Assembly: GCA_022113835.1 (NCBI GenBank)
Contig: JAILWY010000028.1
Span: 4,340,001-4,404,000, forward strand
Source of the DNA: Atopsyche davidsoni
Taxonomy: Eukaryota > Arthropoda > Insecta > Trichoptera > Hydrobiosidae
Length of the DNA stretch: 64,000 nt
Direction of reading: 5' to 3'
This document shows, one piece after another, positions 14,763 to 61,683 of the stretch (its first letter is position 1; each line of letters opens with the position of its first letter). The position numbers and the translations under genes are program-made. Under the pieces are notes generated by a model. That model was not told where the DNA came from. It was given only the letters and a program-made list of their open reading frames with translations, and did no database searches.

Positions 14763-17250
14763 TTAATTATCATTGACAACATTTATGTCACACCCCAAAT
14801 CTAGCAACCATTCAACCACATCCGGTCTTTCTTCTCTAGCAGCCATGTGTAGTAATGATGCACCAGCACTGTCCCTCGTGTGAATATCTACTCCAAGTGT
14901 TACAAACCTCTTCAGCGTTTCTATCGTACAGTTACAATAAATACTTGAAAACAATATATTCTGTCCGTAATTATCGACAACGTTTATGTCACACCCCAAT
15001 TGTACCAACCATTCGACCACATCCGGTCTTTCTTCTCTAGCAGCCATGTGTATTAATGATAGTCCAACACTGTCCCTCGTGTGAATATCTACTCCAAGTG
15101 TTACAAACGTCTTCAGCGTTTCTATCGTACATTTATTTAAAATACCTAAATACAATATATTACGTCCATTATTAGTAACACCGTTTATGTCACACCCCAA
15201 TTCTAGCAACCATTCAACCACATCTAGTCTTTCTTTTCTAGCAGCCATGTGTATTAATGATTCGCCATCACTGTCCCTCGTGTGAATATCTACTCCAAGT
15301 GTTACAAACGTCTTCAGCGTTTCTATTGTACATTTATTTAAAATACCTAAATACAATATATTACGTCCATTATTAGTAACACCGTTTATGTCACACCCCA
15401 ATTCTAGCAACCATTCAACCACATCTAGTCTTTCTTTTCTAGCAGCCATGTGTATTAATGATTCGCCATCACTGTCCCTCGTGTGAATATCTACTCCAAG
15501 TGTTACAAACGTCTTCAGCGTTTCTATTGTACATTTATTTAAAATACCTAAATACAATATATTACGTCCATTATTAGTAACACCGTTTATGTCACACCCC
15601 AATTCTAGCAACCATTCAACCACATCTAGTCTTTCTTTTCTAGCAGCCATGTGTATTAATGATTCGCCATCACTGTCCCTCGTGTGAATATCTACTCCAA
15701 GTGTTACAAACGTCTTCAGCGTTTCTATCGTACAGTTACAATAAATACTTGAAAACAATATATTCTGTCCGTTATTATCGACAACGTTTATGTCACACCC
15801 CAATTGTACCAACCATTCAACCACATCCAGTCTTTCTTTTCTAGCAGCCATGTGTATTAATGATAGTCCAACACTGTCCCTCGTGTGAATATCTACTCCA
15901 AGTGTTACCAACGTCTTCAGCGTTTCTATCGTACATTTACAGAAAATACCTAAATACAATATATTATCTCCATTATTAGTAACAACACTTATGTCACACC
16001 CCAATTCTAGCAACCATTCAACCACATCCAGTCTTTCTTTTCTAGCAGCCATATGTATTAATGATTCGCCATCACTGTCCCTCGTGTGAAAATCTACTCC
16101 AAGTGTTACCAAAGTCTTCAGCATTTCTATCGTACAATTATTTACAATACCTAAAAACAATATATTCTGTCCATAATTATTGACAACGTTTATGTCACAC
16201 CCCAAATCTAGCAACCATTCAACCACATCCAGTCTTTCTTTTCTAGCAGCCATGTGCATTAATGATTCGCCATTACTGTCCCTCGTGTGAATATCTACTC
16301 CAAGTGTTACAAACGTCTTCAGCGTTTCTATCTTACATTTACAGAAAATACCGAAAAACAATATATTATGTCCTTTATTAGTAACAACGCTTATGTCACA
16401 CCCCAATTCTAGCAACCATTCAACCACATCCAGTCTTTCTTTTCTAGCAGCCATGTGTATTAATGATTCGCCATCACTGTCCCTCGTGTGAATATCTACT
16501 CCAAGTGTTACCAATGTCTTCAGCGTTTCTATCTTACATTTACAGGAAATACCTGAAAACAATATATTACATCCTTCATTATCAACAACATTTATGTCAC
16601 ACCCCAAATCTAGCAACCATTCAACCACATCCAGTCTTTCTTTTCTAGCAGCCATGTGCATTAATGATTCGCCATTACTGTCCCTCGTGTGAATATCTAC
16701 TCCAAGTGTTACAAACGTCTTCAGCGTTTCTATCGTACATTTATTATAAATACCTGAAAACAATATATTATATCCATAATTATTAACAACGCTTATGTCA
16801 CACCCCAATTCTAGCAACCATTCAACCACATCCAGTCTTTCTTTTCTAGCAGCCATGTGCATTAATGATTCGCCATTACTGTCCCTCGTGTGAATATCTA
16901 CTCCAAGTGTTACAAACGTCTTCAGCGTTTCTATCGTACATTTATTATAAATACCTGAAAACAATATATTATATCCATAATTATTAACAACGCTTATGTC
17001 ACACCCCAATTCTAGCAACCATTCAACCACATCCAGTCTTTCTTTTCTAGCAGCCATGTGCATTAATGATTCGCCATTACTGTCACTGTTCGTGTGAAAA
17101 TCTACTCCAAGTGTTACCAAAGTCTTCAGCATTTCTATCGTACAATTATTTACAATACCTAAAAACAATATATTCTGTCCATAATTATTGACAACGTTTA
17201 TGTCACACCCCAATTCTAGCAACCATTCGATAACATCCACCCTTTTCACT
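14763..17250 (-). repeat. 201-bp tandem repeat array encoding ankyrin double units in NACHT1
   Basis: About twelve units of 201 bp. Each encodes 67 aa, made of one repeat around IHMAARKERLDVVEWLLELG and a second around NILYLGILNKCTIETLKTFV. Three consecutive units (about 15060-15720) encode identical peptides, and so do two others (about 16700-17070). The VQLGCDINVVDN type recurs four units apart, giving an 804-bp higher-order period. One unit carries an extra codon near 17090. Confidence 0.95.
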
Positions 17251-20200
17251 ATAGTAGCTTGAAGTAGAGTGGTGAAATTGAAAACGTTTTTCGTGTCTTT
17301 ATTAAATTCTTGAGGTTTCAAACTATGTATTACTTCTAGATCGTTGTTAAACCAAATCCCCGTTTGTAAGGGAATATCGCCTTCACGGTCTTCAGCATTT
17401 AAATCCACATTATTTTGCATTAATATGCGTACTCCATCATTGCACTTGTAAGTTAGAGCCAAATGAATTGGATTTTTCTTATCTGCAATATGTGTCGGTT
17501 TGTTTACATCCGCTCCGTACTTAATCAGAAGTTGCAGCGAAGCGAGCTGCTGATTAGATATAGCTTCCCCGAGGAGAGATGCGTGTGCTGTACTGCTGTC
17601 AAAAATATACTCTTTATCTGCAGCCACAGCATTGGCGTCCATACACCTTAAGGCGTTCTCCAGAATCATCTCAGTGCCTTCTATCACCGAATATCTTATT
17701 ATATCCCGGAAAAGCTGCTTTTCATAACACTTCTCGAAAAAAAACATATATTCATCATCAGCATATTCTCCGTTGAAAAATTTTCGTACGTACATAAAAT
17801 CTTCAGTAGCTAATATATTATTCAAAAAGACATTGATTTGCACTTCCATTGCCGATTTACTTTTTAGTAACGCACTGAAGTATTTTGCCAAAAAATATTC
17901 AGCAAAGGTCTGGTGTATGAACTGCGGCTTATCGTGGACAACTGCCGTGATCAACCCCTCGTTTTTATTGCCTTTCGAGTAATTGGACAAGTTTTTAAGG
18001 CATTCTTTCCTTTTGTCCTCAGATAATAAAGCATTAATATGTTCGCTCAACAGTGCATAGATAGCCAAGTCCTGGTGACATTGTATAAATCTCTTATACT
18101 TTTCATCATTATCGTCCATTAAATAAGGACTACTTAATGCCAACTCAGTGTGCACTTTCCTAATGAATGTTTTGAATTTCTTCTCCACGAAAATTTGGAA
18201 TAACTTGTTTAACCCGTTTCTAGTTGTAAATGCCACATTCCCAAAATCATTTTCTTGCAGAACCTCCGCCAGCATGTTTAGGTGAAGAGGCAGGCAGCAG
18301 AAAGACTTCAGGTTACTTGCAATGTCTTTAAAATCACAATTATTTAATTTTTCATGGCTTTGTTCAGATGATTCCAACTTCAACTTGCATATATTATTGA
18401 TAAAGAGATCTTGGTCACGTTCGGTAAGAGGTTCTAAGTGGTGGCTGAATACCCCCAATGATTTCTCCACAAACTGGCACATGTGACTCCTAGTGCTGAC
18501 GACGAGTCCGATGTTAAATTTTTTCAGTTCTTTTAGCAAGTCTCTGACAATATCCTTGTAGTGTGGACTGATCTCGTCGTACCCATCGAACAAAAGAACT
18601 ACCTTCTCTGGTTTATTCAGAAGAGAGTATTGTAGCAGATCACTGCCGAGTGAATCGTTGTTGAGATGCATTTGTAATATATTTTTACAAAGAAATTCTA
18701 TCACTTTTTTTCCATCTAAATATCCAAGATCGTTGCTGATTTTCACACGGTCTATTAATTTCATAAGATCATCAGTATGATCTTTGAGATCTATCTTAAA
18801 AACCCATTTATTATGGAACCGATTTTTTCTATCTTCTGCTAGATGAGAAAGAAAAGTTGACTTTCCTGCGCCGGCACCGTTACTGATTATGAAAGTGAAG
18901 GGAGTCGACTGAGGTAAGAATTCCCCCTCTTCAAGGCTCTGTCCTCCGGAGCTCTCTTCAGTGATACGCATAATCCTATAATTTAGCAACTGTTCTCTTT
19001 GTCCGTGTGTGTCCACCCATGTCAAAATCTTCGAATTGTTTATGTGAATCCAATGTATATTTTTATTACTATATTTTTTACAGATATTTTTAAATTTTTT
19101 CTCATTTTCAGTACCATCTAAAATGAAGTATTTAGGTGTAGAATTGAACTGCACTCGGTGATTATCTGTTTTAAATGAATAAATACGAGGGTCAGACGCA
19201 GTTGCATCGTAAAATTCACTGATCATTTCTTCACATTTTGCAGAATCTGATTTAGAAATTTCCTTTTCTTCTTTGCCCGTGGACAGAATATGATTAAATT
19301 TAAGCATATTTTTAAAATTACTATAAATCACTCCAGACACATCAAAAAGGTCCTGTACTTTTTCATTCCTCAGAATTTCCGAATCAATGTTGATAACTTG
19401 AGATATTTTCCGTTGAATGTAATTTGGATCACATTTGGGTATTTTGGTTCCAATATGAATCTCTGCATCTCGAAGGAGCTTCTCAAAGGTACCAGTATCT
19501 ATATTCTTATAAAACTCTGCTGGGAGAAGATTGTTCAAGGAAACACAGTGACCTTGGAAATTCACTGTCGTCTCCATCAGAGAAGCCCGAGATTCCTCGG
19601 TGAGATCTATAAACTTATACTTGACCAGTGAATGTACGCACATAGTTTTCCACTTTACGATGTTCAAATGAAGTTCACCATGGTGCACCAGCATGACAGT
19701 TGCCGTGGTGTTAAGAAGTATACTTTCTAGAACGTGATGCGCCTCTGCTGTCCACTTGGTGTCGTCGCACTCCACGAGCAGCAGCTCCATACTGCCGGCC
19801 TTGCAAATGCTGCTATCAACCATCTCACGCGTCTCGGGCATCTGCAGCGTGCTCAGTTTGAGAAATATGAATTTGTCTTCTTTTGAGAACCTCTCACATC
19901 CGTGCAACATCTGTAAAACAACAGCTGCCCCAATAGCCGTGTGCTGTATTTGAAAGCAGATGAGCCGCTCCCTTGCGTTAATTAATCTCATCAATGGCTC
20001 CGTGTCAGCTTTTACTTTTTGAAAATCTTTAAAAATGCATCTCTTGAGTTGAGCTTTATAATTCATGCTGATGCCGACACACACCTGATCGATTACTTCG
20101 GATTTTACTTCATTAAAAAGATTTTTACCGCTCTCGAGTGTTAAAGCACTTCGATCTTTCGCCTTGAACCAGTCCATTATTTTAATTTGTAAGCCATCAT

Positions 20201-21275
20201 AAAACCTCTTGCCTGGGCTGACCTGTATCTTTTCTAAGCTCTTAATGATTATATCATCCAGCTGGGTCTCCGAGGGCTGCTCCAGAGCAAGCAGCAGTCT
20301 GTCCATAAATAACATAAAATCTCTTTTTGCTACTGGCTCCGGGAATTGTTCTTCCGAATTGTTGAAATCTTTATCAAATTTATTCGGCAATTTCAAATCC
20401 ATTTTTAGCAAATCCTCAAAGTTTGGTAGTTTACATTCATTCTCGTTATCGTCTTTTTTAAGTCGTTTACTGTTACATTGTTCTTTGTGTTCATCAATGC
20501 ACTTGACAAAAATATCCCGGAAATTGCTTGCATCAGGAAGCTCATTCTTCTGAAATTCAATGCGGAAGCTGGCTTTTTTATTGTTGATATTCAGAACTCC
20601 GGCGAGCGGTTTTTGGTATCGCTTTATAAGGTCAGATCGCAGACTCAACGTTCCGTCACTGCAAAAGATCACGCACAGCTCCATAGCCAGCTTGTACCCA
20701 TCCGTGCCTCTCCAGATACTCTCGAACAGTTCTTCTTGGGCACTCTCCGTCAGCTGGAACAGTCCAGCCTTGTCACTGCAGTGGAAGAGTTCCATGTACC
20801 CCTGAACGTCAGGATAGTTCTCCGGTCGCACTGCAGACAGTGATTTATCTGATTCCTTAAAAGCAGCATTTGTGCAGAGTATGAGATGCTGAGCTTCTCT
20901 GATGGAAATTCCATATAAAAAATTTTCTTTTTGCTTGATGTCTTGCCACGACTGAAAGTATTTTCCTACACAGAAGTCTCCGCTCTCTGCCTTTAGATCG
21001 TCTATTGATATTATTCTGCTACTGTAATTTTTGTGCTTTGCTTGTATTAAATAAGTGGTCCATAAGTCAATTTTTTTACGGGAAAAAAAAACGTCATCAA
21101 ATATTCCGGCATCCTCAAACTCTGTTCCAAGAAAGAAAGGCTCGTCTTCTGACAGCGCTTGTATGAGGCAGAGGATGACCAGCTTGAGTTGGTACGTGAT
21201 TCCCTTCAAGGACTGCCCAAGGGAGTGGTTGATTCTGTAATTTTCCGTGGTGCATTTTTCTCCGAGTTCTGCCAT
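14763..21275 (-). CDS. NACHT1: nuclease-like, NACHT NTPase, ankyrin-array protein (2170 aa)
   Basis: A single uninterrupted frame. Residues 25-85 hold a PD-(D/E)XK-like core: GTE with E52, FDD at 59-61 and QAK at 78-80. This E, D, QxK order is seen in Mrr and Cap4/DUF4297 nucleases. Residues about 90-780 are an unassigned, mostly helical region. The NACHT domain has Walker A GAGAGKST near 799-806, Walker B LLFDGYDEI near 892-900 and a VSTRSH sensor. FIHQTFAEYFLAKYF near 1115 resembles the NLR winged-helix/superhelical segment. Ankyrin repeats start near 1228, with about twelve 67-aa double units from about 1340 to the end. The architecture is that of a STAND switch: ankyrin sensor, NACHT oligomerisation, nuclease effector. 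Cellular role and target are unknown. The start is the first ATG after a conserved splice-acceptor-like leader. The nuclease call is by motif only; NACHT and ankyrin are firm. Confidence 0.9.
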   Translation of the reverse strand: MAELGEKCTTENYRINHSLGQSLKGITYQLKLVILCLIQALSEDEPFFLGTEFEDAGIFDDVFFSRKKIDLWTTYLIQAKHKNYSSRIISIDDLKAESGDFCVGKYFQSWQDIKQKENFLYGISIREAQHLILCTNAAFKESDKSLSAVRPENYPDVQGYMELFHCSDKAGLFQLTESAQEELFESIWRGTDGYKLAMELCVIFCSDGTLSLRSDLIKRYQKPLAGVLNINNKKASFRIEFQKNELPDASNFRDIFVKCIDEHKEQCNSKRLKKDDNENECKLPNFEDLLKMDLKLPNKFDKDFNNSEEQFPEPVAKRDFMLFMDRLLLALEQPSETQLDDIIIKSLEKIQVSPGKRFYDGLQIKIMDWFKAKDRSALTLESGKNLFNEVKSEVIDQVCVGISMNYKAQLKRCIFKDFQKVKADTEPLMRLINARERLICFQIQHTAIGAAVVLQMLHGCERFSKEDKFIFLKLSTLQMPETREMVDSSICKAGSMELLLVECDDTKWTAEAHHVLESILLNTTATVMLVHHGELHLNIVKWKTMCVHSLVKYKFIDLTEESRASLMETTVNFQGHCVSLNNLLPAEFYKNIDTGTFEKLLRDAEIHIGTKIPKCDPNYIQRKISQVINIDSEILRNEKVQDLFDVSGVIYSNFKNMLKFNHILSTGKEEKEISKSDSAKCEEMISEFYDATASDPRIYSFKTDNHRVQFNSTPKYFILDGTENEKKFKNICKKYSNKNIHWIHINNSKILTWVDTHGQREQLLNYRIMRITEESSGGQSLEEGEFLPQSTPFTFIISNGAGAGKSTFLSHLAEDRKNRFHNKWVFKIDLKDHTDDLMKLIDRVKISNDLGYLDGKKVIEFLCKNILQMHLNNDSLGSDLLQYSLLNKPEKVVLLFDGYDEISPHYKDIVRDLLKELKKFNIGLVVSTRSHMCQFVEKSLGVFSHHLEPLTERDQDLFINNICKLKLESSEQSHEKLNNCDFKDIASNLKSFCCLPLHLNMLAEVLQENDFGNVAFTTRNGLNKLFQIFVEKKFKTFIRKVHTELALSSPYLMDDNDEKYKRFIQCHQDLAIYALLSEHINALLSEDKRKECLKNLSNYSKGNKNEGLITAVVHDKPQFIHQTFAEYFLAKYFSALLKSKSAMEVQINVFLNNILATEDFMYVRKFFNGEYADDEYMFFFEKCYEKQLFRDIIRYSVIEGTEMILENALRCMDANAVAADKEYIFDSSTAHASLLGEAISNQQLASLQLLIKYGADVNKPTHIADKKNPIHLALTYKCNDGVRILMQNNVDLNAEDREGDIPLQTGIWFNNDLEVIHSLKPQEFNKDTKNVFNFTTLLQATIVKRVDVIEWLLELGCDINVVNNYGQNILFLGIVNNCTIEMLKTLVTLGVDFHTNSDSNGESLMHMAARKERLDVVEWLLELGCDISVVNNYGYNILFSGIYNKCTIETLKTFVTLGVDIHTRDSNGESLMHMAARKERLDVVEWLLELGCDISVVNNYGYNILFSGIYNKCTIETLKTFVTLGVDIHTRDSNGESLMHMAARKERLDVVEWLLDLGCDINVVDNEGCNILFSGISCKCKIETLKTLVTLGVDIHTRDSDGESLIHMAARKERLDVVEWLLELGCDISVVTNKGHNILFFGIFCKCKIETLKTFVTLGVDIHTRDSNGESLMHMAARKERLDVVEWLLDLGCDINVVNNYGQNILFLGIVNNCTIEMLKTLVTLGVDFHTRDSDGESLIHMAARKERLDVVEWLLELGCDISVVTNNGDNILYLGIFCKCTIETLKTLVTLGVDIHTRDSVGLSLIHMAARKERLDVVEWLVQLGCDINVVDNNGQNILFSSIYCNCTIETLKTFVTLGVDIHTRDSDGESLIHMAARKERLDVVEWLLELGCDINGVTNNGRNILYLGILNKCTIETLKTFVTLGVDIHTRDSDGESLIHMAARKERLDVVEWLLELGCDINGVTNNGRNILYLGILNKCTIETLKTFVTLGVDIHTRDSDGESLIHMAARKERLDVVEWLLELGCDINGVTNNGRNILYLGILNKCTIETLKTFVTLGVDIHTRDSVGLSLIHMAAREERPDVVEWLVQLGCDINVVDNYGQNILFSSIYCNCTIETLKRFVTLGVDIHTRDSAGASLLHMAAREERPDVVEWLLDLGCDINVVNDN

Positions 21276-24475: not shown

Positions 24476-27400
24476 TTATGCAGCACGAGTCCTTTCAATA
24501 ACATCAAGCCGTTTCTCTTTCTTAGTTGTACGTGAAAGCGATTGATTTTTTTTTTTTTTTCTTTTATTTTCTCCGGGCAATTTGCGGAGTTTAGATTTCT
24601 TCAATGCAGATCGTCCTTCATTATCAATTTCATACGCATCGCATCCTAATTTTACTAACCAATCTATCACGTCATCTCTTTTTTTCTTGATAGCTACGTG
24701 GAGCGGATTTTGGCCCTCGTTGTTTTTTATATGAATATCTAGTCCGCATGAAACTAATTTTTTTAATGTGCTTAGCTTGCTATCATGTGTAATACCAAAA
24801 ATCAAGGCAGTCCGACCTATATTATCCACCTCATTCATATCACACTTATGCTTTAACAGCAATTCTATGACATTTACTCTATCTTTTCTAGTAGCCACAT
24901 GAAGCAGTGGTATGCCGTAATTGTCTCTTGTATGAATATTTAAACCGAGTGACAGTAATTTTTCAAACATTTTATAATCACAGTAAAATAATGCATTTCG
25001 ACCCATATCGTCAACATCGTTTAAATCACACTTGGATCTTAGCAACCATTTAATAACATTGAGACTATCTTTGCTGGCAGCTGCATGTAGCGGGGTCATG
25101 CCATTCTTATCCTTAGTGTGAATATTTATTCCAAGTGATTCCAGTTTCTGTAAAGATTTGAGTTTACATTTGTAAAAAATGCAATTATACAATGCAGTCT
25201 GACCTTTGTTGTCAACCTCGTTTATATCACAGTTCAATTCTATCAACCATTCGACCACATTCAGTCTTTCTTTTCTAGCAGCTATGTGTAGTGATGATGC
25301 ACCACGGCTGTCCCTCGTGTGAATATCTACTCCAAATGATACCAACATCTTCAACGTTTTTATCGAACATCGATTTGAAATGCCTAAAAACAATATATTC
25401 TGTCCATAATTATTGACAACGTTTATGTCACACCCCAATTCTAGCAACCATTTGATAACATTCATTCTTTCCACTATAGTAGCTCGAAGAAGAGGAGTGG
25501 CACCGTGAACGTTCCTCGTGTCTTTATCAAATTCTCGAGGTTTCAAACTTTGTATTATTTCTAGATCGTTGTTGAACAAAATCCCCGTTTGTAAGGGAAT
25601 ATCGCCATGACGGTTTTCAGCATTTAAATCCACATTATTTTGTATTAATACGCATACTCCTTTATTCCAATTGTAAGTTAGGGCCAAATGAATTGGATTT
25701 GTCTTATCTGCAATATGGGTCGGTTTGTTTACATCCGCTCCGTATTTAATCAGAAGTTGCAACGAAGCGAGCTGCTTATTAGATATAGCTTCCCCGAGGA
25801 GAGATGCGTGTGCTGTACTGCTGTCAAAAATATACTCTTTATCTGCAGCCACAGCATTGGCGTCCATACACTTTAAGGCGTTCTCCAGAACCATCTCAGT
25901 GCTTTCTATCACCGAATATCTTATTATATCTCGGAAAAGCTGCTTTTCATAACACTTCTCGAAAAAAAACATATTTTCATCATCAGCATATTCTCCATTG
26001 AAAAATTTTCTTACGTCCATAAAATCATCAGTAGCCAATATATTATTCAAAAAGACATTTATTTGCACTTCCATTGCCAATTTACTTTTTAATAACGCAC
26101 TGAAGTATTTTGCCAAAAAGTATTCAGCAAAGGTCTGGTGTATGAACTGCGGCTTATCGTGGACAACTGCCGTGATCAACCCCTCGTTTTTATTGCCTTT
26201 CGAGTAATTGGACAAGTTTTTAAGGCATTCTTGTTTTTTGTCCTCAGATAATAAAGCATTAATATGTTCGCTCAACAGTGCATAGACAGCCAAGTCCTGG
26301 TGACATTGTATAAATCTCTCGTACTTTTCATCAATTTCTTCTATTAATAAAACACTACTTAACGACGACTCAGTGTGCACTTTCCTAATGAATGTTTTGA
26401 ATTTCTTCTCCACGAAAATTTGAAATAACTTGTTTAACCCGTTTCCAGTTGTAAATGCCACATTCCCAAAATCATTTTCACACGCTTCTCTCGACCCTTC
26501 TTGCAGAACCTCTACCAGCATCTTTAGGTGGAGAGGCACGCAGCAGAAAGACTTCAGGTTACTTGCAATCTCTTTAAAAACATAATAATTTATTTTGCCT
26601 TGGCTTTGTTCAGAATCTTCCGACTTCACCGGCCATATCTTTTGGATAAAGAGATCTTGATCACGTTCGGTTAGAGGTTCTATGTGGTGGCTGAATACCC
26701 CCAAGGATTTCTCCACAAACTGGCACATGTGATTCCTAGTGCTGACGACGAGTCCAATGTTAAATTTTTTCAGTTCTTTTAGTAAGTCTCTGACAATATT
26801 CTTGTAGTGTGGACTGATCTCATCGTACCCATCGAACAATAGAACGACCCCCTCTCGTTTATTCAGAAGAGAGAATTGTAGCAGATCACTGCCGAGTGAA
26901 TCGTTGTTGAAATGCATTTGTAATATATTTTTACAAAGAAATTCTATCACTTTTTCTCCATTTAAATGTTTAAGATCGTTGCTGATTAATTTCATAAGGT
27001 CATCAGTATGATCTTTGAGATCTATCTTAAAAACCCATTCATTGTGGAACCGATTTTTTCTATCTTCTGCTAAATGAGAAAGAAAAGTTGACTTTCCTGC
27101 ACCGGCACCGTTACTGATTATGAAAGTGAAGGGAGTCGACTGAGGTAAGAATTCCCCCTCTTTGATGCACTGTCCTCCGGAGCTCTCTTCAGTGACACGA
27201 ATGATGTTATAATTTAGCAACTGTTCAATTTGTCCATGTGTTTTCACCCATGTCAAATTCTTCGAATTATGTATGTGAATCCAATGTATATTTTTCTGGC
27301 TATATGTATCACAGATATGTTTAAAGTTTTTCTCATTTTCAGTACCGTCAGAGTCTAATATGAAGTATTTAGCTGCAGAATTGGACTGCAATTGGTGATT

Positions 27401-30400
27401 ATCTGTTTTAAATGAATAAATAAGAGGGTCAGACGCAGTTGCATAGTAAAATTCACTGTTCATTTCTTCACATTTTGGAGAATCTGATACAGAGATTTCC
27501 TTCTCTTCTTTGCCCGTGGACAGAATATGATTAAATTTAAGCATATTTTTAAAATTACCATAAGTCACTCCGGACACAGCAAAAAGGTCCTGTACTTCTT
27601 CATTCCTCAGAATTTCCGAATCAATTTTGATAACTTGAGATAAATTCCGTTGAATATAATTTGGATCACATTTAGATATTTCGGTTCCAATATGAATCTC
27701 TGCGTTTCGAAGGAGCTTCTCAAATGTATCAGTATCTATATTCTGATAAAACTCTTCTGGGAGAAGATTGTTCAAGGAAACACAGTTACCTTGGAAGTTC
27801 ACTGTCCTTTGCATCAGAGTACCCTGAGATTCCTCTGTGAGATCAACGAACTTATACTTGACCTCCGAAAGTACGCACGTAGGTTGTGCGATGTTCAAAT
27901 GAAGTTTACCATGGTGCACCAGCATGACAGTTGCCGTGGTGTTAAGAAGTATACTTTCTAGAACTTTATGCGCCTCTTCTGTCCACTTGGTGTCGTCGCA
28001 CTCCACGAGAAGCAGCTCCATACTGCCGGCCTTGCAAATGCTGCTATCAACCATCTCACGTGTCTCGGGCATCTGCAGCGTGCTCAGTTTGAGAAATATG
28101 AATTTGTCTCCTTCAGATCCGTCCAACATCTGCAGAATGACGGCTGCCCCTATGGCCGTGTGCTGTATTTGAAAGCAGATGAGCCGCTGCTTTACCGTAA
28201 TTAATCTCGTCAATGGCTCCGTGTCAGCACTTGCTATTTGAAAATCTTTAAAATTGCATCTCTTGTTGAGTTGAGCTTTATAATTATTGCTGATGCCGAC
28301 ACATGCGTGATCGATTACTTCGGATTTTACTTCATTAAAAAGTTTTTTACCGCTCTCGAGTGTTAAATCATTATGATCTTGGTCCATGAACCAGTCCTTT
28401 ATTTTAATTTGTAAGCCATCATAAATCCGCTTGCCCAGACCGGCCTGTACCTTTTCTATGTTCCTAATAATTATATCATCCAGCTGGGTATCCGAGGGCT
28501 GCTCCAGAGCAAGCAGAAATCTGTCCATAAATAACATAAAATCTCTTTTTGCTACTGGCTCCGGGAATTGTTCTTCCGAATTGTTGAAATCTTGATCAAA
28601 TATATTCGGCAATGTCAAATCCATTTTTAGCAATTTCTCAAAGTTTGGTAGTTTACATTTCTTCACGTTTTCATTAAGTCGTTTACATTGTTTTTTGTGT
28701 TCATTAATACACTTGACAAAAATATCCCGGAAATTGCGTGCATCAGAAAGTTCATTCTTTTGAAATTCAATGTTTAAGCTGCCTTTTTTATTGTTGATAT
28801 TCAGAACTCTGTCCAGCGGTTTTTGGTATCGCTTTAAAAGGTCAGATTGCTGACTACTTGTTTCGCCATTACAAATGATCTTGCACAGCTCCATAGCCAG
28901 CTTGTACCCATCCGTGAATCTCCAGATATCCTTGAACAGTTCTTCTCGCGCACTCTCCGTCAGCTGGTACAGTCCAGCCTTGTCACTGCAGTGGAAGAGT
29001 TTCATGTACCCCTGAACGTCAGGATATTTCTCCACAGGCAGTGTTTTATCTGATACCTCAAAAGCAGCGTTTGTGCAGAGTATGAGATGCTGAGCTTCTC
29101 TGATGGAAATTCCACGTAAATTTTTGTTTTCTCGCTGGATGTCTTGCCACGACTGAAAGTATCTCCCAACACAGAAGTCTCCTTTCTCTGCCTTAAGATC
29201 GTTCATTGATATTTTGTTCTCACTGTAATTTTTGTGCTTTGCTTGTATTAAATAAGTGGTCTGTAAGCCATCTTTTTTACGGGAAAAAATAACGTCATTA
29301 AATAATCCGGCAACCTCAAACTCCGTTCCAAGAAAGAAAGGCTCTTCTTCTGACAGCGCTTGTATGAGGAAGAGGATGATCAGGTGGAGTTGGAACTCAG
29401 GTCCATTCATGGACAGCGCAAGGGAGCGGTTGATTTCGTCATTTGCCTGCGAAAGTACACACTTAGGTTTCCTCTTTACGATGTCTGAATGAAGTTCACC
29501 ATGGTGCACTAGCATGACAGTTGCTGTGGTGTTACGAAGTATACTTTCTAGAACTTGATGCCCCTCTGCTGCCCACTTGGTGTCGTCGCACTTCACGAGC
29601 AGCAGCTCCATACTGCCGACCTTGCAAATGCTGCTATCAACCATCTCACGTAGCTCGGGCTTCTGCAACGTGCTCAGTTTGAGAAATATGAATTTGTCTT
29701 CTTTTGAGAACCTCTCACATCCGTGCAACATCTGTAAAACAACAGCTGCCCCAATAGCCGTGTGCTGTATTTGAAAGCAAATGAGCCGCTCTCTTCTTGC
29801 GTGAATTAATCTCATCAATTGCTCCGTGTCAGCACTTGCTATTTTAATTTTTTTATGATTGCATGTCTTGAGATGAGCTTTTTTATAATTCATGCTGATG
29901 CCGACACATATCTGATTGAATTCTTCGGATTTTACTTCATTAATAAGATTTTTACCGCTCTCGAGTGTCAACCACCACGAGTGTCGAGCACCTTTATCTT
30001 GGTCTATGAACCAGTCCTTTATTTTAATTCGTAAGCCATCATAAATCCTCTTGCCCATTCTGGCCTGCACCTTTTCTATGTTCTTAATAATTATAACATC
30101 CAGCTGGGTATCCGAGGGTTGCTCTAGAGCAAGCAGAAATCTGCCCATAAAAAACTTAAAATCTTTATCTAAATCTTGGTCCGGGTATTTTTCTTCCGAA
30201 TTTTCGAAATCTTGATCAAATATATTCGGCAATGTCAAATCCATTTTTAGCAATTTCTCAAAGTTTGGTAGTTTACATTTCTTCACGTTTTCATTAAGTT
30301 GTTTACATTGTTTTTTGTGTTCATTAATACACTTGACAAAAGTATCCCGGAAATTGCGTGCATCAGAAAGTTCATCCTTCTGAAATTCAATGCTGAAGCT

Positions 30401-32574: not shown

Positions 32575-32578
32575 CTGG

Positions 32579-46500: not shown

Positions 46501-47555
46501 CCTGGACTAACCTGTATCTTTTCTAAGCTCTTAATGATTATATCATCCAGCTGGGTCTCCGAGGGCTGCTCAAGAGCAAGCAGCAGTCTGTTCATAAATA
46601 ACATAAAATCTCTTTTTTCTGCTGGCTCCGGGAATTGTTCTTCCGAATTGTTGAAATGTTTATCAAATTTATTTGGCAATTTCAAATCCATTTTTAGCAA
46701 ATCCTCAAAGTTTGGTAGTTTACATTCATTCACGTTATCGTTTTTTTTAAGTCGTTTACTTTTACATTGTTCTTTGTGTTCATCAATGCACTTGACAAAA
46801 ATATCCCGGAAATTGCTTGCATCAGGAAGTTCATCCTCCTGAAATTTAATGCAGAATCTAGCTTTTTTATTGTCGATATCTAGAACTTCGGCGAGCGGTT
46901 TTTGGTATCGCTTTATAAGGTCAGATCGCAGACTCAACGTTAGACCGTCCCTGCAAAAGATCTCGCACAGCTCCAAAGCCAGCTTGTAACCATCCGTGAA
47001 TCTCCAGATATCCTCGTACAGTTCTTCTCGCGCACTCTCCGTCAGTTGGTACAGTCCAGCCTTGCCTGGAACTGTTGTTCCACTGCAGTGGAAGAGATCC
47101 ATGTACCCCTGAACGTCAGGATAGTTCTCCGGTCGCACTGCAGACAGTGATTTATCTGATTCCTTAAAAGCAGCGTTTGTGCAGAGTATGAGATGCTGAG
47201 CTTCTCTGATGGAAATTCCATGTAAATTTTTGTTTTCTCGCTGGATGTTTTGCCACGACTGAAAGTATTTCCCAACACAGAAGTCTCCGCTCTCTGCCTT
47301 AAGATCGTCCATTGATATTATTTTCCCACTGTAATTTTTGTGCTTTGCTTGTATTAAATAAGTGGTCCATAAGTCATTTTTTTTACGGGAAAAAAAAACG
47401 TCATCAAATATTCCGGCATCCTTAAGCTCCGTTCCAAGAAAGAAAGGCTCGCCTTCTGACAGCGCTTGTATGAGGTAGAGGATGACCAGCTTGAGTTGGT
47501 ACTCGATTCCCTTGAAGGTCCCCGCAAGGGAGTGGTTGATATTGTCATTTGCCAT
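42246..47555 (-). CDS. NACHT3: nuclease-like, NACHT NTPase, ankyrin-array protein (1769 aa)
   Basis: Uninterrupted frame with a shorter N-terminus than NACHT1 (MANDNINHSL). GTE, FDD and QAK are kept in the N-terminal domain within about residues 40-75. Walker A GAGAGKST is near 798, Walker B LLFDGYDEI near 892, and FIHQTYAEYFLAKYF near 1117 has Tyr where paralogues have Phe. Ankyrin repeats start near 1228, with only about six 67-aa double units, making this the shortest paralogue. Its units are more diverged from each other than those of NACHT1 or NACHT4. It ends in LGCDINAVNDN, close to the NACHT1 end (DINVVNDN), so the native C-terminus is probably intact. Flanking sequences tie it to segmental duplication copy B. 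Confidence 0.9.
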   Translation of the reverse strand: MANDNINHSLAGTFKGIEYQLKLVILYLIQALSEGEPFFLGTELKDAGIFDDVFFSRKKNDLWTTYLIQAKHKNYSGKIISMDDLKAESGDFCVGKYFQSWQNIQRENKNLHGISIREAQHLILCTNAAFKESDKSLSAVRPENYPDVQGYMDLFHCSGTTVPGKAGLYQLTESAREELYEDIWRFTDGYKLALELCEIFCRDGLTLSLRSDLIKRYQKPLAEVLDIDNKKARFCIKFQEDELPDASNFRDIFVKCIDEHKEQCKSKRLKKNDNVNECKLPNFEDLLKMDLKLPNKFDKHFNNSEEQFPEPAEKRDFMLFMNRLLLALEQPSETQLDDIIIKSLEKIQVSPGKRFYDGLQIKIMDWFKDKDRSALTLESCKNLINDVKSDVVDQMCVGISMNYKAQLKRCNFKDFQIASADTEPLMRLIHASERLICFRIKHTAIGAAVVLQMLGGSEMFSKGDKFIYLKLSTLQMPETREMVDSSICKAGSMELLLVECDDTKWTAEAHHILERILHNTTATVMLVHHGELNLNIVKWKTTCVLSQVTYKFIDLTEESRATLMQTTVNFQGNCVSLNNLLPAEFYKNIDTDTFEKLLRDAEIHIGTEIPKCDPNYIQRKISQVINIDSEILRNEEVQDLFAVSGVTYGNFKNMLKFNHILSTGKEEKEISESDSTKCEEMISEFYDATEYDPRIYSFQTDKHRVQSNSTPKYFILDSDGTENKKTFENICVKYSNKNIHWIHKNNSKILTWVDTHGQREQLLNYRIMRVTEESSGGQCIEEGEFLPQSTPFTFIISNGAGAGKSTFLSHLAEVRKNRFHNEWVFKIDLKDHTDDLMKLKDRVKISNDRRYLDGEKVIEFLCKNILQMHFNNDSLGSDLLQFSLLSKREGVVLLFDGYDEISPHYKDIVRDLLKELKKFKIGLIVSTRSHMCQFVEESLGVFSHHLEPLTERDQDLFIQKMCSVKSESSGDSEQSHGKLNYCDKDIASILKSFFCLPLHLKMLVEVLQENDFGNVAFTSGNGLNKLYKIFVQKKFETFIRKAHIESSFTSAYLMDFIKSERERFIQRYQDLAIYALLSEHIDALLSEDKRKECLNNLSELTKGNKNEGLVTADVHNKPQFIHQTYAEYFLAKYFSALLKSKSAMEVQIHVFLNNILATEDFMYVRKFFNGEYADDENMIFFEKCYEKQLFRDIIRYSVIEGTEMILENALRCMDANAVAADKEYIFESSTAHASLLGEAISNKQLASLQLLIKYGADVNKPTHIADKINPIHLALAYKWNDGICVLQIQNNVDLNAEDRHGDIPLQTGILFNNDREIIQSLKPREFDKDTRNIHGETPLHKATIVERVDIIEWLLQLECGINVVDNYGNNILFFGILYKCTIETLKTLVALGVDIHMRNSADESLIHIAAMEERMDVVEWLLELECDINVVTNKGYNILYLNIVNKCKIETLKKLEKLGVDIHTKDIAGVSLLHVATVEERLDVVEWLLELRCDINVVTNKGYNILFLGIFCKCTIETLKTLVALGADIHTGDSYGQSLLQTAATEERLDVVEWLIQLGCDINDLTNKGYNILYKGIINKFTIETLKTFVALGVDIHTSDSASASLLQVAVIQERLDVVEWLLELGCDINFVANKRYNILFLGIFCKCTIETLKTLVALGADIHTRDHHSRSLLHVAVIQERLDVVEWLLELGCDINVVTNEGYNILFIGIFFKSTIETLKTFVALGVDIHTSDSYGRSLLQTAATKERLDVVEWLLELGCDINAVNDN

Positions 47556-54495: not shown

Positions 54496-54499
54496 TTAA

Positions 54500-54820: not shown

Positions 54821-54960
54821 TTAAACATCTCATGACTATCAAATATTATCATAGCAAAAAAATATATAAAAAACTATATACCTTAAAACAATATACCTAA
54901 AACAATATCAATAATAAAAATTATAAACAATTAAAAACAATATTAATAATAAAACAATAT

Positions 54961-55570
54961 ATTCTGTCAATGACAACGTTTCTGTCACCCCCATTCTAGC
55001 AACCATTCAACCACATCTATTCTTTCTTTTCCAGCAGCTATGTGTAGTGATGATTGGCCATAACTGTCCCTCGTGTGAATATCTACTCCAAGTGTTACCA
55101 ATGTCTTCAGCGTTTCTATCATACATTTATTAAAAATACCTAAAAACAATATATTACATCCTTCATTATCAACAACATTTGTCACACCCCAATTCTAGCA
55201 ACCATTCAACCACATCCAGTCTTTCTACTATGGCAGCCATGTGTATAAATGATAGGCCACAACTGTTCCTCGTGTGAATATCTACTCCAAGTGTTACCAA
55301 CGTCTTCAGCGTTTCTATTGTACATTCATTTAATATACATGTAAACAATATATTCCATCCTTTATCATTGACAACGTTTATGTCTCACCCCAATTCAAGC
55401 AACCATTCAACCACATCTAGTCTTTCTTTTATAGCAGCCACGTGTAGTAATGATGCACCATCACTGCCCTTCGTGTGAATATCTACTCCAAGTGTTACCA
55501 ACGTCTTTAGCGTTTCTATCGTACATTTATTTAAAATACCTAAAAACAATATATTATGTCCCACCCCAAT
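54961..55570 (-). pseudogene. Decayed ankyrin tail of NACHT4
   Basis: Three further 201-bp ankyrin units continue past the NACHT4 stop but are broken. They are out of frame after the 25-bp deletion near 55557. A TGA replaces a Cys/Trp codon near 55387. A 2-bp deletion near 55183 shifts the frame again. The last unit is damaged where NACHT1 and NACHT3 end in VNDN. This was the original C-terminus of NACHT4. Confidence 0.88.
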
Positions 55571-58500
55571 TCTAGCAACCATTCAACCACATCCAGTCTT
55601 TCTACTATGGCAGCCATGTGTATAAATGATTGGCCACCACTGTTCCTCGTGTGAATATCTACTCCAAGTGTAACAAACGTCTTCAGCGTTTCTATCGTAC
55701 ATTTATTTAAAATACCTAAAAACAATATATTATATCCAGCATTATCAACAACATTTATGTCCCACCCCAATTCTAGCAACCATTCAACCACATCCAGTCT
55801 TTCTACTATGGCAGCCATGTGTATAAATGATTGGCCACCACTGTTCCTCGTGTGAATATCTACTCCAAGTGTAACAAACGTCTTCAGCGTTTCTATCGTA
55901 CATTTATTTAAAATACCTAAAAACAATATATTATATCCAGCATTATCAACAACATTTATGTCCCACCCCAATTCTAGCAACCATTCAACCACATCCAGTC
56001 TTTCTACTATGGCAGCCATGTGTATAAATGATTGGCCACCACTGTTCCTCGTGTGAATATCTACTCCAAGTGTAACAAACGTCTTCAGCGTTTCTATCGT
56101 ACATTTATTTAAAATACCTAAAAACAATATATTATATCCAGCATTATCAACAACATTTATGTCCCACCCCAATTCTAGCAACCATTCAACCACATCCAGT
56201 CTTTCTACTATGGCAGCCATGTGTATAAATGATTGGCCACCACTGTTCCTCGTGTGAATATCTACTCCAAGTGTAACAAACGTCTTCAGCGTTTCTATCG
56301 TACATTTATTTAAAATACCTAAAAACAATATATTATGTCCTTCATTATCAACAACATTTATGTCCCACCCCAATTCTAGCAACCATTCAACCACATCCAG
56401 TCTTTCTACTATGGCAGCCATGTGTATAAATGATTGGCCACCACTGTCCCTCGTGTGAATATCTACTCCAAGTGTTACCAACGTCTTCAGCGTTTCTATC
56501 GTACATTTATTTAAAATACCTAAAAACAATATATTATGTCCTTCATTATCAACAACATTTATGTCCCACCCCAATTCTAGCAACCATTCAACCACATCCA
56601 GTCTTTCTACTATGGCAGCCATGTGTATAAATGATTGGCCACCACTGTTCCTCGTGTGAATATCTACTCCAAGTGTAACAAACGTCTTCAGCGTTTCTAT
56701 CGTACATTTATATAAAATACCTAAAAACAATATATTATATCCAGCATTATCAACAACATTTATGTCCCACCCCAATTCTAGCAACCATTCAACCACATCC
56801 AGTCTTTCTACTATGGCAGCCATGTGTATAAATGATTGGCCACCACTGTTCCTCGTGTGAATATCTACTCCAAGTGTAACAAACGTCTTCAGCGTTTCTA
56901 TCGTACATTTATTTAAAATACCTAAAAACAATATATTATGTCCTTCATTATCAACAACATTTATGTCCCACCCCAATTCTAGCAACCATTCAACCACATC
57001 CAGTCTTTCTACTATGGCAACCATGTGTATAAATGATTGGCCACCACTGTCCCTCGTGTGAATATCTACTCCAAGTGTTACCAACGTCTTCAGCGTTTCT
57101 ATCGTACATTTATTTAAAATACCTAAAAACAATATATTATGTCCTTCATTATCAACAACATTTATGTCCCACCCCAATTCTAGCAACCATTCAACCACAT
57201 CCAGTCTTTCTACTATGGCAGCCATGTGTATAAATGATTGGCCACCACTGTTCCTCGTGTGAATATCTACTCCAAGTGTAACAAACGTCTTCAGCGTTTC
57301 TATCGTACATTTATTTAAAATACCTAAAAACAATATATTATGTCCTTCATTATCAACAACATTTATGTCCCACCCCAATTCTAGCAACCATTCAACCACA
57401 TCCAGTCTTTCTACTATGGCAGCCATGTGTATAAATGATTGGCCACCACTGTCCCTCGTGTGAATATCTACTCCAAGTGTAACAAACGTCTTCAGCGTTT
57501 CTATCGTACATTTATATAAAATACCTAAAAACAATATATTATATCCTTTATTATTAACAACATTTATGTCACACTCCAATTCTAGCAACCATTTGATAAC
57601 ATCCATCCTTTCCACTATAGTAGCTTGAAGTAGAGGGGTGGCACCGTAAAAACTCCTCGTGTCTTTATCAAATTCTCGAGGTTTCAAACTTTGTATTATT
57701 TCTAGATCGTTGTTGAACAAAATCCCCATTTGTAAGGGAATATCGCCATAATAGTCTTTAGCATTTAAATCCACATTATTTTGTATTAATACGCATACTC
57801 CTTTATTCCAATTGTAAGTTAGGGCCAAATGAATTGGATTAGTCTTATCTGCAGTATGGGTCGGTTTGTTTACATCCGCTCCGTATTTAATCAGAAGTTG
57901 CAACGAAGCAAGCTGCTCATTAGATATAGCTTCCCCGAGGAGAGATATGTGTGCTGTACTGCTGTCAAAAATATACTCTTTATCTGTAGCCACAGCATTG
58001 GCGTCCATACACTTTAAGGCGTTCTCCAGAATCATCTCAGTGCCTTCTATCACCGAATATCTTATTATATCTCGGAAAAGCTGCTTTTCATAACACTTCT
58101 CAAAAAAAAACATATTTTCATCATCAGCATATTCTCCATTGAAAAATTTTCTTACGTCCATAAAATCATCAGTAGCCAATATATTATTCAAAAAGACATT
58201 TATTTGCACTTCCATTGCCAATTTACTTTTTAATAACGCACTGAAGTATTTTGCCAAAAAGTATTCAGCAAAGGTCTGGTGTATGAACTGCGGCTTATCG
58301 TGGACAACTGCCGTGATCAACCCCTCGTTTTTATTGCCTTTCGAGTAATTGGACAAGTTTTTAAGGCATTCTTTCTTTTTGTCCTCAGATAATATAGCTT
58401 CAATGTGTTCGCTCAACAGTGCATAGATAGCCAAGTCCTGGTGACATTGAATAAATCTCTCGTACTCTTTATTAATAATGTCCATTAAATAAACACTACT

Positions 58501-61500
58501 TAACGACGACTCAGTGTGCGCTTTCCTAATAAATGTTTTGAATTTCTTCTCCACGAAAATTTGGAATAACTTGTTTAACCCATTTCCAGTTGTAAATGCC
58601 ACATTCCCGAAATCATTTTCAGTCGCTTCTCTCGAACCTTCTTGCAGAACCTCCACCAGCATGTTTAGGTGGAGAGGCACGCAGCAGAAAGACTTCAGGT
58701 TATTTGCAATGTCTTTAAAATCACAATAATTTATTTTTCCATGACTTTGTTCAGAATTTTCTGAAGATTCCGACTTCACCGGACATATCTTTTGGATAAA
58801 GAGATCTTGATCACGTTCAGTTAGAGGTTCTAAGTGGTGGCTGAATACACCCAATGATTTCTCCACAAACTGGCACATGTGACTCCTAGTGCTGACAACG
58901 AGTCCGATGTTAAATTTTTTCAGTTCTTTTAGCAAGTTTCTGACAATATCCTTGTAATGTGGACTGATCTCGTCATACCCATCGAACAATAGAACGACCC
59001 CCTCTCGTTTATTCAGAAGAGATGATTGTAGCAGGTCACTGCCGAGTGAATCGTTGTTGAAATGCATTTGTAATATATTTTTACAAAGAAAATCTATCAA
59101 TTTTTCTCCATCTAAATATCCAAGATCGTTGCTGTTTTTCACACGGTCTATTAATTTCATAAGGTCATAAGTATGATCTTTGAGATCTATCTTAAAAACC
59201 CATTCATTATGGAACCGATTTTTTCTATCTTCTGCTAGATGAGAAAGAAAAGTTGACTTTCCTGCGCCGGCACCATTACTGATTATGAAAGTGAAGGGGG
59301 TCGACTGAGATAAGAATTCCCCCTCTCCGAGGCTCTGTCCTCCGGAGCTCTCTTCAGTGACACGCATAATCCTATAATTTAGCAACTGTTCAATTTGTCC
59401 GTGTGTTTTCACCCATGTCAAAATCTTCAAATTGTGTATGTGAATCCAATGTATATTTTTATGGCTATATGTATCACAGATATGTTTAAAGTTTTTCTCA
59501 TTTTCAGTACCGTCAGAGTCTAATATGAAGTATTTAGCTGTAGAATTGAACTGCAGTCGGTGATTATCCGTTTTAAATGAATAAAAACGAGGGTCAGACT
59601 CAGTTGCATCGTAAAATTCACTGTTCATTTCTTCCCATTTTGCAGAATCTGGTTCTGAGATTTCCTTCTCTTCTTTGCCAGTGGACAGAATATGATTAAA
59701 TTTAAGCATATTTTTAAAATTACCATCAGTCACTCCGGACACAGCAAAAAGGTCCTCTATATTTTCATTCCTCAGAATTTCCCAATCAATGTTGATAACT
59801 TGAGATATATTCCGTCGAATGTAATTTGGATCACATTTGGATATTTCGGTTCCAATATGAATCTCTGCGTCTCGGAGGAGCTTCTCAAAGGTACCAGTAT
59901 CTATATTGTTATAAAACTCTTCTGGGAGAAGATTGTTCAAGACAACACAGTGACCTTGGAAGTTCACTGTCGTTTGCATCAGAGAAGCTTGAGACTCCTC
60001 GGTGAGATCAATAAAATTATACTTGACCTGCGAAAGTACACACTCAGGTTTCCACTTTACGATGTCCGAATGAATTTCACCGTGGTGCACCAGCATGACA
60101 GTTGCCGTGGTGTTAAGAAGTATACTTTCTAGAACGTGATGCGCCTCTGCTGTCCACTTGGTGTCGTCGCACTCCACGAGCAGCAACTCCATACTGCCGG
60201 CCCTGCAAATGCTGCTATCAACCATCTCACGCGTCTCGGGCATCTGCAGCGTGCTTAGTTTGAGAAATATGAATTCGTCTTCTTTTGAGAACCTCTCACA
60301 TCCGTGCAACATCTGCAGAACGACGGCTGCCCCTATGGCCGTGTGCTGTATTCGAAAGCAAATGAGCCGCTCTCTTCTTGCGTGAATTAATCTCATCAAT
60401 GGCTCCGTGTCAGCACTTGCTATTTGAAAATCTTTAAAAATGCATCTCTTGAGTTGAGCTTTATAATTCATGCTGATGCCGACACACACCTGATCGATTA
60501 CTTCGGATTTAACTTCATTAATAAGATTTTTACCGCTCTCGAGTGTTAAAGCACTTCGATCTTTGTCCTTGAACCAGTCCATTATTTTAATTTGTAAGCC
60601 ATCATAAAAGCGCTTGACTGGACTGACCTGTATCTTTTCTAAGCTCTTAGTGATTATATCATCCAGCTGGGTCTCCGAGGGCTGCTCCAGAGCAAGCAGC
60701 AGTCTGTCCATAAATAACATAAAATCTCCTTTTGCTACTGGCTCCGGGAATTGTTCTTCCGAATTGTTGAAATCTTTATCAAATTTATTTGGCAATTTCA
60801 AATCCATTTTTAGCAAATCCTCAAAGTTTGGTAGTTTACATTCATTCCCGTTATCGGTTTTTTTATGTCGTTTACTTTTACATTGTTCTTTGTGTTTATC
60901 AATGCACTTGACAAAAATATCCCGGAAATTGCTTGCATCAGGAAGTTCATTCTTTTGAAATTCAATGCAGAAGCTGGCTTTTTTATTGTTGATATTCAGA
61001 ACTCCGGCGAGCGGTTTTTGGTATCGCTTTATAAGGTCAGATCGCAGACTCAACGTCAGACCGTCCCTGCAAAAAATCTCGCACAGCTCCATAGCCAGTT
61101 TGTACCCATCCGTGCCTCTCCAGATACCCTCTAACAGTTCTTCTCGCGCACTCTCCGTCAGCTGGTACAGTCCAGCCTTGTCACTGCAGTGGAAGAGTTC
61201 CATGTACCCCTGAACGTCAGGATAGTTCTCCGGTCGCACTGCAGACAGTGATATTTCTGATTCCTTAAAAGCAGCGTTTGTGCAGAGTATGAGATGCTGA
61301 GCTTCTCTGATGGAAATTCCATATAAATTTTTTTCTTTTTGCTGGATGTCTTGCCACGACTGAAAGTATTTTCCTACACAGAAGTCTCCGCTCTCTGCCT
61401 TTAGATCGTCTATTGATATTATTCTGCTACTGTAAGTTTTGTGCTTTGCTTGTATTAAATAAGTGGTTTGTAAGCCATTTTTTTTACGGGAAAAAAAAAC

Positions 61501-61683
61501 GTCATCAAATTTTCCGGCATCCTCAAACTCCGTTCCAAGAAAGAAAGGCTCGTCTTCTGATAGCGCTTGTATGAGGCAGAGGATGACCAGCTTGAGTTGG
61601 TATGTGATTCCCTTTAAGGACTGCCCAAGGGAGTTGTTGATTTTGCTATCTTCCGTGGTGCATTTTTCTCCGTATTCTGCCAT
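55540..61683 (-). CDS. NACHT4: nuclease-like, NACHT NTPase, ankyrin-array protein, truncated C-terminus (2047 aa)
   Basis: Uninterrupted frame. The N-terminal nuclease-like domain has GTEFEDAG, FDD and QAK as in NACHT1. Walker A GAGAGKST lies near 803, Walker B LLFDGYDEI near 898, and FIHQTFAEYFLAKYF near 1120. Ankyrin repeats start near 1240, followed by about ten highly uniform 67-aa units (SFIHMAAIVERLDVVEWLLE, INVVDNEGHNILFLGILNKC). Cys of the ELGCDI motif is Trp (ELGWDI) in nearly every unit, a change spread through the array. The protein ends in the unrelated DIIYCF because a 25-bp deletion between two TATGTCC repeats shifts the frame, but about 95 percent of the protein remains. It may well be functional. 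Confidence 0.88.
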   Translation of the reverse strand: MAEYGEKCTTEDSKINNSLGQSLKGITYQLKLVILCLIQALSEDEPFFLGTEFEDAGKFDDVFFSRKKNGLQTTYLIQAKHKTYSSRIISIDDLKAESGDFCVGKYFQSWQDIQQKEKNLYGISIREAQHLILCTNAAFKESEISLSAVRPENYPDVQGYMELFHCSDKAGLYQLTESAREELLEGIWRGTDGYKLAMELCEIFCRDGLTLSLRSDLIKRYQKPLAGVLNINNKKASFCIEFQKNELPDASNFRDIFVKCIDKHKEQCKSKRHKKTDNGNECKLPNFEDLLKMDLKLPNKFDKDFNNSEEQFPEPVAKGDFMLFMDRLLLALEQPSETQLDDIITKSLEKIQVSPVKRFYDGLQIKIMDWFKDKDRSALTLESGKNLINEVKSEVIDQVCVGISMNYKAQLKRCIFKDFQIASADTEPLMRLIHARRERLICFRIQHTAIGAAVVLQMLHGCERFSKEDEFIFLKLSTLQMPETREMVDSSICRAGSMELLLVECDDTKWTAEAHHVLESILLNTTATVMLVHHGEIHSDIVKWKPECVLSQVKYNFIDLTEESQASLMQTTVNFQGHCVVLNNLLPEEFYNNIDTGTFEKLLRDAEIHIGTEISKCDPNYIRRNISQVINIDWEILRNENIEDLFAVSGVTDGNFKNMLKFNHILSTGKEEKEISEPDSAKWEEMNSEFYDATESDPRFYSFKTDNHRLQFNSTAKYFILDSDGTENEKNFKHICDTYSHKNIHWIHIHNLKILTWVKTHGQIEQLLNYRIMRVTEESSGGQSLGEGEFLSQSTPFTFIISNGAGAGKSTFLSHLAEDRKNRFHNEWVFKIDLKDHTYDLMKLIDRVKNSNDLGYLDGEKLIDFLCKNILQMHFNNDSLGSDLLQSSLLNKREGVVLLFDGYDEISPHYKDIVRNLLKELKKFNIGLVVSTRSHMCQFVEKSLGVFSHHLEPLTERDQDLFIQKICPVKSESSENSEQSHGKINYCDFKDIANNLKSFCCVPLHLNMLVEVLQEGSREATENDFGNVAFTTGNGLNKLFQIFVEKKFKTFIRKAHTESSLSSVYLMDIINKEYERFIQCHQDLAIYALLSEHIEAILSEDKKKECLKNLSNYSKGNKNEGLITAVVHDKPQFIHQTFAEYFLAKYFSALLKSKLAMEVQINVFLNNILATDDFMDVRKFFNGEYADDENMFFFEKCYEKQLFRDIIRYSVIEGTEMILENALKCMDANAVATDKEYIFDSSTAHISLLGEAISNEQLASLQLLIKYGADVNKPTHTADKTNPIHLALTYNWNKGVCVLIQNNVDLNAKDYYGDIPLQMGILFNNDLEIIQSLKPREFDKDTRSFYGATPLLQATIVERMDVIKWLLELECDINVVNNKGYNILFLGILYKCTIETLKTFVTLGVDIHTRDSGGQSFIHMAAIVERLDVVEWLLELGWDINVVDNEGHNILFLGILNKCTIETLKTFVTLGVDIHTRNSGGQSFIHMAAIVERLDVVEWLLELGWDINVVDNEGHNILFLGILNKCTIETLKTLVTLGVDIHTRDSGGQSFIHMVAIVERLDVVEWLLELGWDINVVDNEGHNILFLGILNKCTIETLKTFVTLGVDIHTRNSGGQSFIHMAAIVERLDVVEWLLELGWDINVVDNAGYNILFLGILYKCTIETLKTFVTLGVDIHTRNSGGQSFIHMAAIVERLDVVEWLLELGWDINVVDNEGHNILFLGILNKCTIETLKTLVTLGVDIHTRDSGGQSFIHMAAIVERLDVVEWLLELGWDINVVDNEGHNILFLGILNKCTIETLKTFVTLGVDIHTRNSGGQSFIHMAAIVERLDVVEWLLELGWDINVVDNAGYNILFLGILNKCTIETLKTFVTLGVDIHTRNSGGQSFIHMAAIVERLDVVEWLLELGWDINVVDNAGYNILFLGILNKCTIETLKTFVTLGVDIHTRNSGGQSFIHMAAIVERLDVVEWLLELGWDINVVDNAGYNILFLGILNKCTIETLKTFVTLGVDIHTRNSGGQSFIHMAAIVERLDVVEWLLELGWDIIYCF
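55570..57600 (-). repeat. 201-bp ankyrin repeat array with 603-bp higher-order period in NACHT4
   Basis: Units at 201-bp spacing from about 55647 to 57456. Combinations of DNEGH/DNAGY, TFV/TLV and HTRN/HTRD recur every three units. Segments near 56430-56630 and 57033-57233 encode the same peptide 603 bp apart, showing that blocks of three units were copied together. Confidence 0.93.

Follow-up and report, generated by a model that had tools for sequence, protein, structure and literature searches.

What might an insect do with large proteins that join a nuclease-like domain to a NACHT switch and a run of ankyrin repeats? The question is raised by the window analysed here, a 64-kb stretch of Atopsyche davidsoni DNA (C28:4340001-4404000) inside a 7.4 Mb contig of a genome of 370.7 Mb in 80 contigs, which carries four such genes, g1 to g4. 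We suggest, with a probability of roughly 0.6, that they encode intracellular STAND (NLR-like) receptors in which the ankyrins would sense a ligand, the NACHT domain would oligomerise and an LmuA/Cap4-type nuclease would cut DNA in defence or suicide. The architecture is supported by the analyses below; immune function, oligomerisation, DNA cutting and ligand sensing are proposed by analogy with Avs, Lamassu and NLR precedents.

The four genes are uninterrupted minus-strand open reading frames (ORFs), the only closed ATG ORFs of at least 250 aa in the window according to the ORF listing. In all four proteins the domain order is the same: the nuclease-like N-terminus is followed, after a linker of several hundred residues, by NACHT, then a post-NACHT region and finally ankyrins. 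The E...D...QAK motif, Walker A (GAGAGKST), Walker B (LLFDGYDE) and, in the post-NACHT region, FIHQT(F/Y)AEYF align in 4/4 of them. The motifs and ankyrin arrays listed in the original prediction were recovered throughout by alignment and Pfam, the post-NACHT motif with an F/Y variant. That prediction also called the genes intact, with 1769-2206 codons; positions, sizes and strand agree, but "intact" is only partly true of g4, because the spacing in its array falls to 176 instead of 201 bp, a 25-nt register shift followed by an out-of-frame remnant with stops to about 54927. The N-terminal nuclease module occurs twice in g2, at aa 1-550 and again from aa 551. The features, in window coordinates, are:

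14763..21275, minus strand: gene g1, 2170 aa; putative LmuA/Cap4-type nuclease, linker, NACHT, post-NACHT, ankyrin array
20037..21275, minus strand: g1 nuclease (LmuA-like) module, about aa 1-413; E52, D61, Q78, K80; extent by analogy with g3
18351..18890, minus strand: g1 NACHT, about aa 796-975
14766..17555, minus strand: g1 ankyrin array, 201-bp two-repeat units
24476..31096, minus strand: gene g2, 2206 aa; nuclease module duplicated
29882..31096, minus strand: g2 first nuclease module, limits approximate
28217..29446, minus strand: g2 second nuclease module, from aa 551, end approximate
26597..27133, minus strand: g2 NACHT, limits approximate
24479..25789, minus strand: g2 ankyrin region, units mostly diverged
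42246..47555, minus strand: gene g3, 1769 aa
46329..47555, minus strand: g3 nuclease (LmuA-like) module, aa 1-409; E43, D52, Q69, A70, K71; LmuA profile 7.1e-8 over aa 6-409
44646..45188, minus strand: g3 NACHT, about aa 790-970
42249..43838, minus strand: g3 ankyrin array
55540..61683, minus strand: gene g4, 2047 aa; array broken by 25-nt register shift
60442..61683, minus strand: g4 nuclease module, end approximate
58759..59301, minus strand: g4 NACHT, limits approximate
55543..57924, minus strand: g4 ankyrin array, several units 98-100% identical
54927..55539, minus strand: decayed out-of-frame tail of the g4 array, containing stops
37317..37802, minus strand: fifth copy, broken; a NACHT/post-NACHT fragment sharing 73% identity with g3 aa 916-1053

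Profile, motif conservation and, weakly, fold point to a PD-(D/E)XK nuclease of Cap4/LmuA type at the N-terminus. The LmuA profile matched 18 of 22 family N-termini (best 6.7e-10), with no match for the copies on contigs C13 and C20 or for a copy in Wolbachia phage WO (L029), and a Pfam search returned no Cap4 match to the N-terminal region. The motif residues D53, Q72, A73 and K74 were present in all 22 aligned rows and E44 in 21, the phage WO copy having N in place of E; D, Q and K are invariant among sequences down to 24% identity. The equivalents of D61 and K80, which the original prediction had expected not to vary freely, were thus D and K in 22/22 rows. A first fold search gave weak and heterogeneous matches, its top rows including LINE endonucleases and tRNA-splicing endonucleases, and a second look placed LmuA in the top row with weak fold agreement. 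For the Cap4- or Mrr-type nuclease of the original prediction, the best match is LmuA.

The switch region was recognised by Pfam as NACHT in the four window proteins at 1e-5 to 5e-5, slightly below the curated cut-off, and in the relatives L041 and L029 above it (28.6 and 26.9 bits versus 26.7). Carrying NACHT with both Walker A and Walker B, the predicted proteins have the domain content of STAND/NACHT ATPases. A profile of 12 NACHT regions (A6) matched NLRC4 (5.7e-5) and NLRP3 (1.2e-4) in the PDB, and the post-NACHT region matched as well. Both structures are well represented in the PDB, so these matches are no proof of animal over bacterial descent. Among PADLOC profiles run against the same 12 regions, only mad8 matched (2/12, best 3e-4) and none named Avs did.

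The genes belong to a family that reaches well beyond the window. Genome searches with g3 (41 matches, 27 of 124 candidates scored) and with the core of relative L022 (53 matches, 41 of 70 scored) both give lower bounds. From the latter we counted at least 30 loci on six contigs with nuclease and NACHT in one stop-free frame: 19 on C24, six on C28 (four of them in the window), two on C11 and one each on C27, C20 and C13. The count leaves out broken or partial C28 loci at 4.408, 4.423 and 4.46 Mb, C24:8329325 and five short C24 pieces, and additional rows within a counted frame were not counted again. Read from the genome, none of the 30 predicted frames needs an intron between nuclease and NACHT. 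Relative to g3, those C28 copies that were compared are 78-87% identical, copies on C24 and C11 32-38%, the C20 copy 31% and the C13 copy 26%. The 2883-codon open frame at C24:8202766-8209173 has two successive matches to the core (query aa 5-1111 followed by 367-1110) and is apparently a further gene that, like g2, is duplicated internally.

Outside the genome, the closest relative found is the core of a giant phage WO gene, which is collinear with the insect proteins from nuclease through NACHT to ankyrins. Scanning IMG/VR with A2 returned two Wolbachia phage WO contigs: L029, with nuclease, linker, NACHT and ankyrins in one frame and in the order of the insect proteins, and L030, whose frame is broken. 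In tblastn against these two loci, L017 matched L029 at 5e-45 over aa 319-1123 and 5e-16 over aa 22-245. The whole ORF (L040 4713-18968; 14,256 bp, 4751 aa) adds ankyrins and an OTU protease before the core and ankyrins with a latrotoxin C-terminal domain after it, and its neighbours match solved wPip CinA (445 aa, 6e-295) and CinB (732 aa), the latter neighbour sharing, along 42% of its length, 99.4% identity with phage WO AB036666. Identity between WO and insect copies is 23-28%. The WO copy falls beside or outside the C13 copy in a tree that was midpoint-rooted for drawing only, where both are long branches that may join falsely.

Further searches yielded nothing closer. No relative was confirmed in GTDB prokaryote genomes, where scans rested on two and six short peptide patterns; plasmid and phage records gave no closer relative, one phage search returning ankyrin-only matches. 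IMG/VR scans with A4 and A3 added nine and two loci beyond the WO contigs, matching the NACHT part only, and no nuclease motif was seen by eye, with no profile run, in their printed frame starts. Two observations concern the giant gene itself: a second OTU-like motif, NCFFHAVFGD, was noted by eye besides the Pfam OTU match, and a PD-(D/E)XK family transposase (PF12784, 3.7e-51; L040 18952-19884) lies directly at the gene's end and is a possible means of transfer.

The phage WO relative bears on the alternative that survives best, that the family is a domesticated endosymbiont-type effector whose core came from a phage-WO-like source (or the reverse) and now serves reproduction, symbiont control or a toxin-antidote role rather than pathogen recognition. 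A collinear relative inside the 4751-aa WO protein, beside genes matching solved CinA and CinB, agrees with such an origin, as do the 30 insect copies counted, in each of which nuclease and NACHT share a single frame that requires no intron. Yet the insect copies share only 23-28% identity with the WO copy, so any exchange with WO would be old; a single WO copy (on two contigs) stands against a diverse insect family; and Bordenstein & Bordenstein (2016; PMC5062602) report that the WO NACHT lies in the midst of arthropod sequences. We regard this alternative as unlikely.

Substitution rates suggest constraint on all four regions of the core, weakest in the nuclease. Median dN/dS was 0.67 in the nuclease, 0.57 in the linker, 0.36 in NACHT and 0.57 in the post-NACHT region for 15 C28 pairs, and 0.64, 0.60, 0.41 and 0.57, respectively, for 55 C24/C11 pairs (Nei-Gojobori, own script; pairs are non-independent and medians are given without formal test), with single pairs reaching 1.64 in the nuclease. 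Fast evolution of this region (median 0.64-0.67) and the N at the motif E position of the WO copy would fit an inactive nuclease fold kept as a binding or oligomerisation module, leaving a NACHT-ankyrin scaffold or signalling hub that does not cut DNA. We consider this slightly less probable than the endosymbiont origin, as D, Q and K stay invariant down to 24% identity.

For the receptor reading, the ankyrin arrays would be the sensing face. Ankyrin matches were overwhelming in the Pfam scan of the four window proteins. The array unit is two ankyrins. Its best period is 201 bp in the C28 genes, whereas each of the 15 genes examined from C24, C11 and C27 gives 204 bp (the signal is weak in g2, L017 and L021), and the arrays were therefore homogenised separately. 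Units inside one gene are up to 98-100% identical, as seen in part of the g4 array. Just beyond the window, a relative at about C28 4430502-4441718 (L009, L058) has an open frame of 4209 codons; two pieces of it with a 1.5-kb overlap carry 14 and 30 two-ankyrin units, which by arithmetic makes about 37 units (some 75 single ankyrins), with the frame still open at the edge of the sequence covered.

Residue diversity in the aligned arrays is concentrated at contact positions 2, 3, 5, 13 and 14, the sites randomised in designed ankyrin proteins. Mean entropy at these positions was 1.80 versus 0.41 over 38 units of g1, g3, g4 and L009 (0/20000 permutations), 1.68 versus 0.53 over 50 units of L015 and L023-L026 (1/20000) and 1.61 versus 0.38 over 12 units of L014 and L016 (0/20000). 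The pooled C24/C11 runs use a one-residue register shift chosen after seeing the single-gene results and leave out L019 and L027; the entropy tests as a whole leave out g2, L011, L017, L018, L020-L022 and L028. Single-gene (or gene-pair) runs were enriched at <5% of permutations in 8/12 cases, with no enrichment in L024 (6.7%), L025, L019 and L027. Ankyrins are generally variable at these contact positions, and pN/pS at the contact codons was not above random sets (53, 124 and 19 of 300), so we claim concentrated diversity and not proven positive selection.

Least probable is that repeats and transposons have driven a lineage-specific expansion that has little function under selection, with arrays growing by slippage, as several broken copies, nearby mariner and LINE fragments and 98-100% identical units might suggest, since a 4209-codon frame is kept open within repeats, median dN/dS is below 1 in every domain tested and residue changes concentrate at contact positions.

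Under the receptor reading, the C-terminal ankyrin array would bind a ligand and thereby free the NACHT ATPase switch for nucleotide exchange and oligomerisation. The oligomer would bring together N-terminal LmuA/Cap4-type PD-(D/E)XK domains, leading to DNA cutting and so to destruction of an invader or to cell death as a suicide response. What the array binds may change as near-identical two-repeat units turn over and their contact residues vary. A wider proposal, which we hold only tentatively and would not expect to be right in full, is that this arthropod family of large, fast-evolving nuclease-STAND receptors with a module-swapping ankyrin face is an animal version of Lamassu/Avs, exchanged with phage WO as a mimic, decoy or weapon beside cytoplasmic-incompatibility genes. 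Insects are not known to have classical NLR receptors. If the receptor reading is true, at least 30 nuclease-NACHT-ankyrin genes would form a candidate intracellular sensor system in insects, with a bacterial-defence-type DNase as effector instead of a death-fold adaptor, and the family would link animal immunity, bacterial Lamassu/Avs defence and a phage WO locus with cytoplasmic-incompatibility genes.

The rest of the window looks like insect DNA. A bacterial or viral origin was rejected, given the size of the contig (7.4 Mb) and of the genome (371 Mb), a split male-sterility-type gene and the mariner and LINE fragments. Pieces of that gene (NAD_binding_4, male sterility/fatty acyl-CoA reductase-like) lie at 8118-10417 on the plus strand, apparently as an ordinary intron-bearing gene. 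Two mariner-like fragments (Transposase_1/DDE_3; 31805-32251 and 48295-48711, minus strand) adjoin gene copies, and two LINE endonuclease fragments (Exo_endo_phos_2; 36612-37022 and 52328-52990, plus strand) lie between them; the paired fragments may mark duplicated gene-plus-flank segments.

How, then, does the family compare with known systems? Animal NLRs such as NLRC4 and NLRP3 share the NACHT and post-NACHT match but differ in lacking the nuclease-like N-terminus, and a classical animal NLR was rejected as a candidate, the Pfam scan of the four proteins containing no LRR, CARD or PYD. Termite transcripts have been annotated as NLR and NACHT (PMC3712931). Bacterial Avs proteins (e.g. Avs3) resemble the family in joining nuclease to STAND and in the order nuclease-STAND-repeat; this part of the originally proposed Avs resemblance stands, but ankyrins replace the Avs sensor and no profile named Avs matched. 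The available part of PMC8195603 reports restriction-endonuclease effectors among STAND-linked bacterial systems and, within that part, does not describe a nuclease-NACHT-ankyrin family.

The Lamassu effector LmuA is the best profile match and the top row of the second fold look. LmuA acts with a separate SMC-type partner, LmuB, whereas the LmuA-like domain of this family is joined to NACHT and ankyrins in one protein; no LmuB partner occurs among the window's long ORFs, and the genome was not searched for LmuB.

The phage WO NACHT protein comes closest, with nuclease, linker, NACHT and ankyrins collinear and a homologous NACHT region, but differs in its flanking ankyrin/OTU and ankyrin/latrotoxin C-terminal parts, in the N at motif E and in its 23-28% identity. 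The accessible text of PMC5062602 describes WO genes up to 14,256 bp, a length equal to that of the L040 ORF, a WO protein in which ankyrins and a latrotoxin C-terminal domain come after NACHT, and NACHT relatives throughout arthropods and crustaceans; a nuclease is not mentioned in that text, and after a narrow literature search we do not claim its absence from print. The original prediction included neither these arthropod relatives nor the collinear WO relative. The WO NACHT and its arthropod relatives had been reported in 2016 (PMC5062602); the present analysis describes the collinear nuclease-NACHT-ankyrin core shared by the WO and insect copies.

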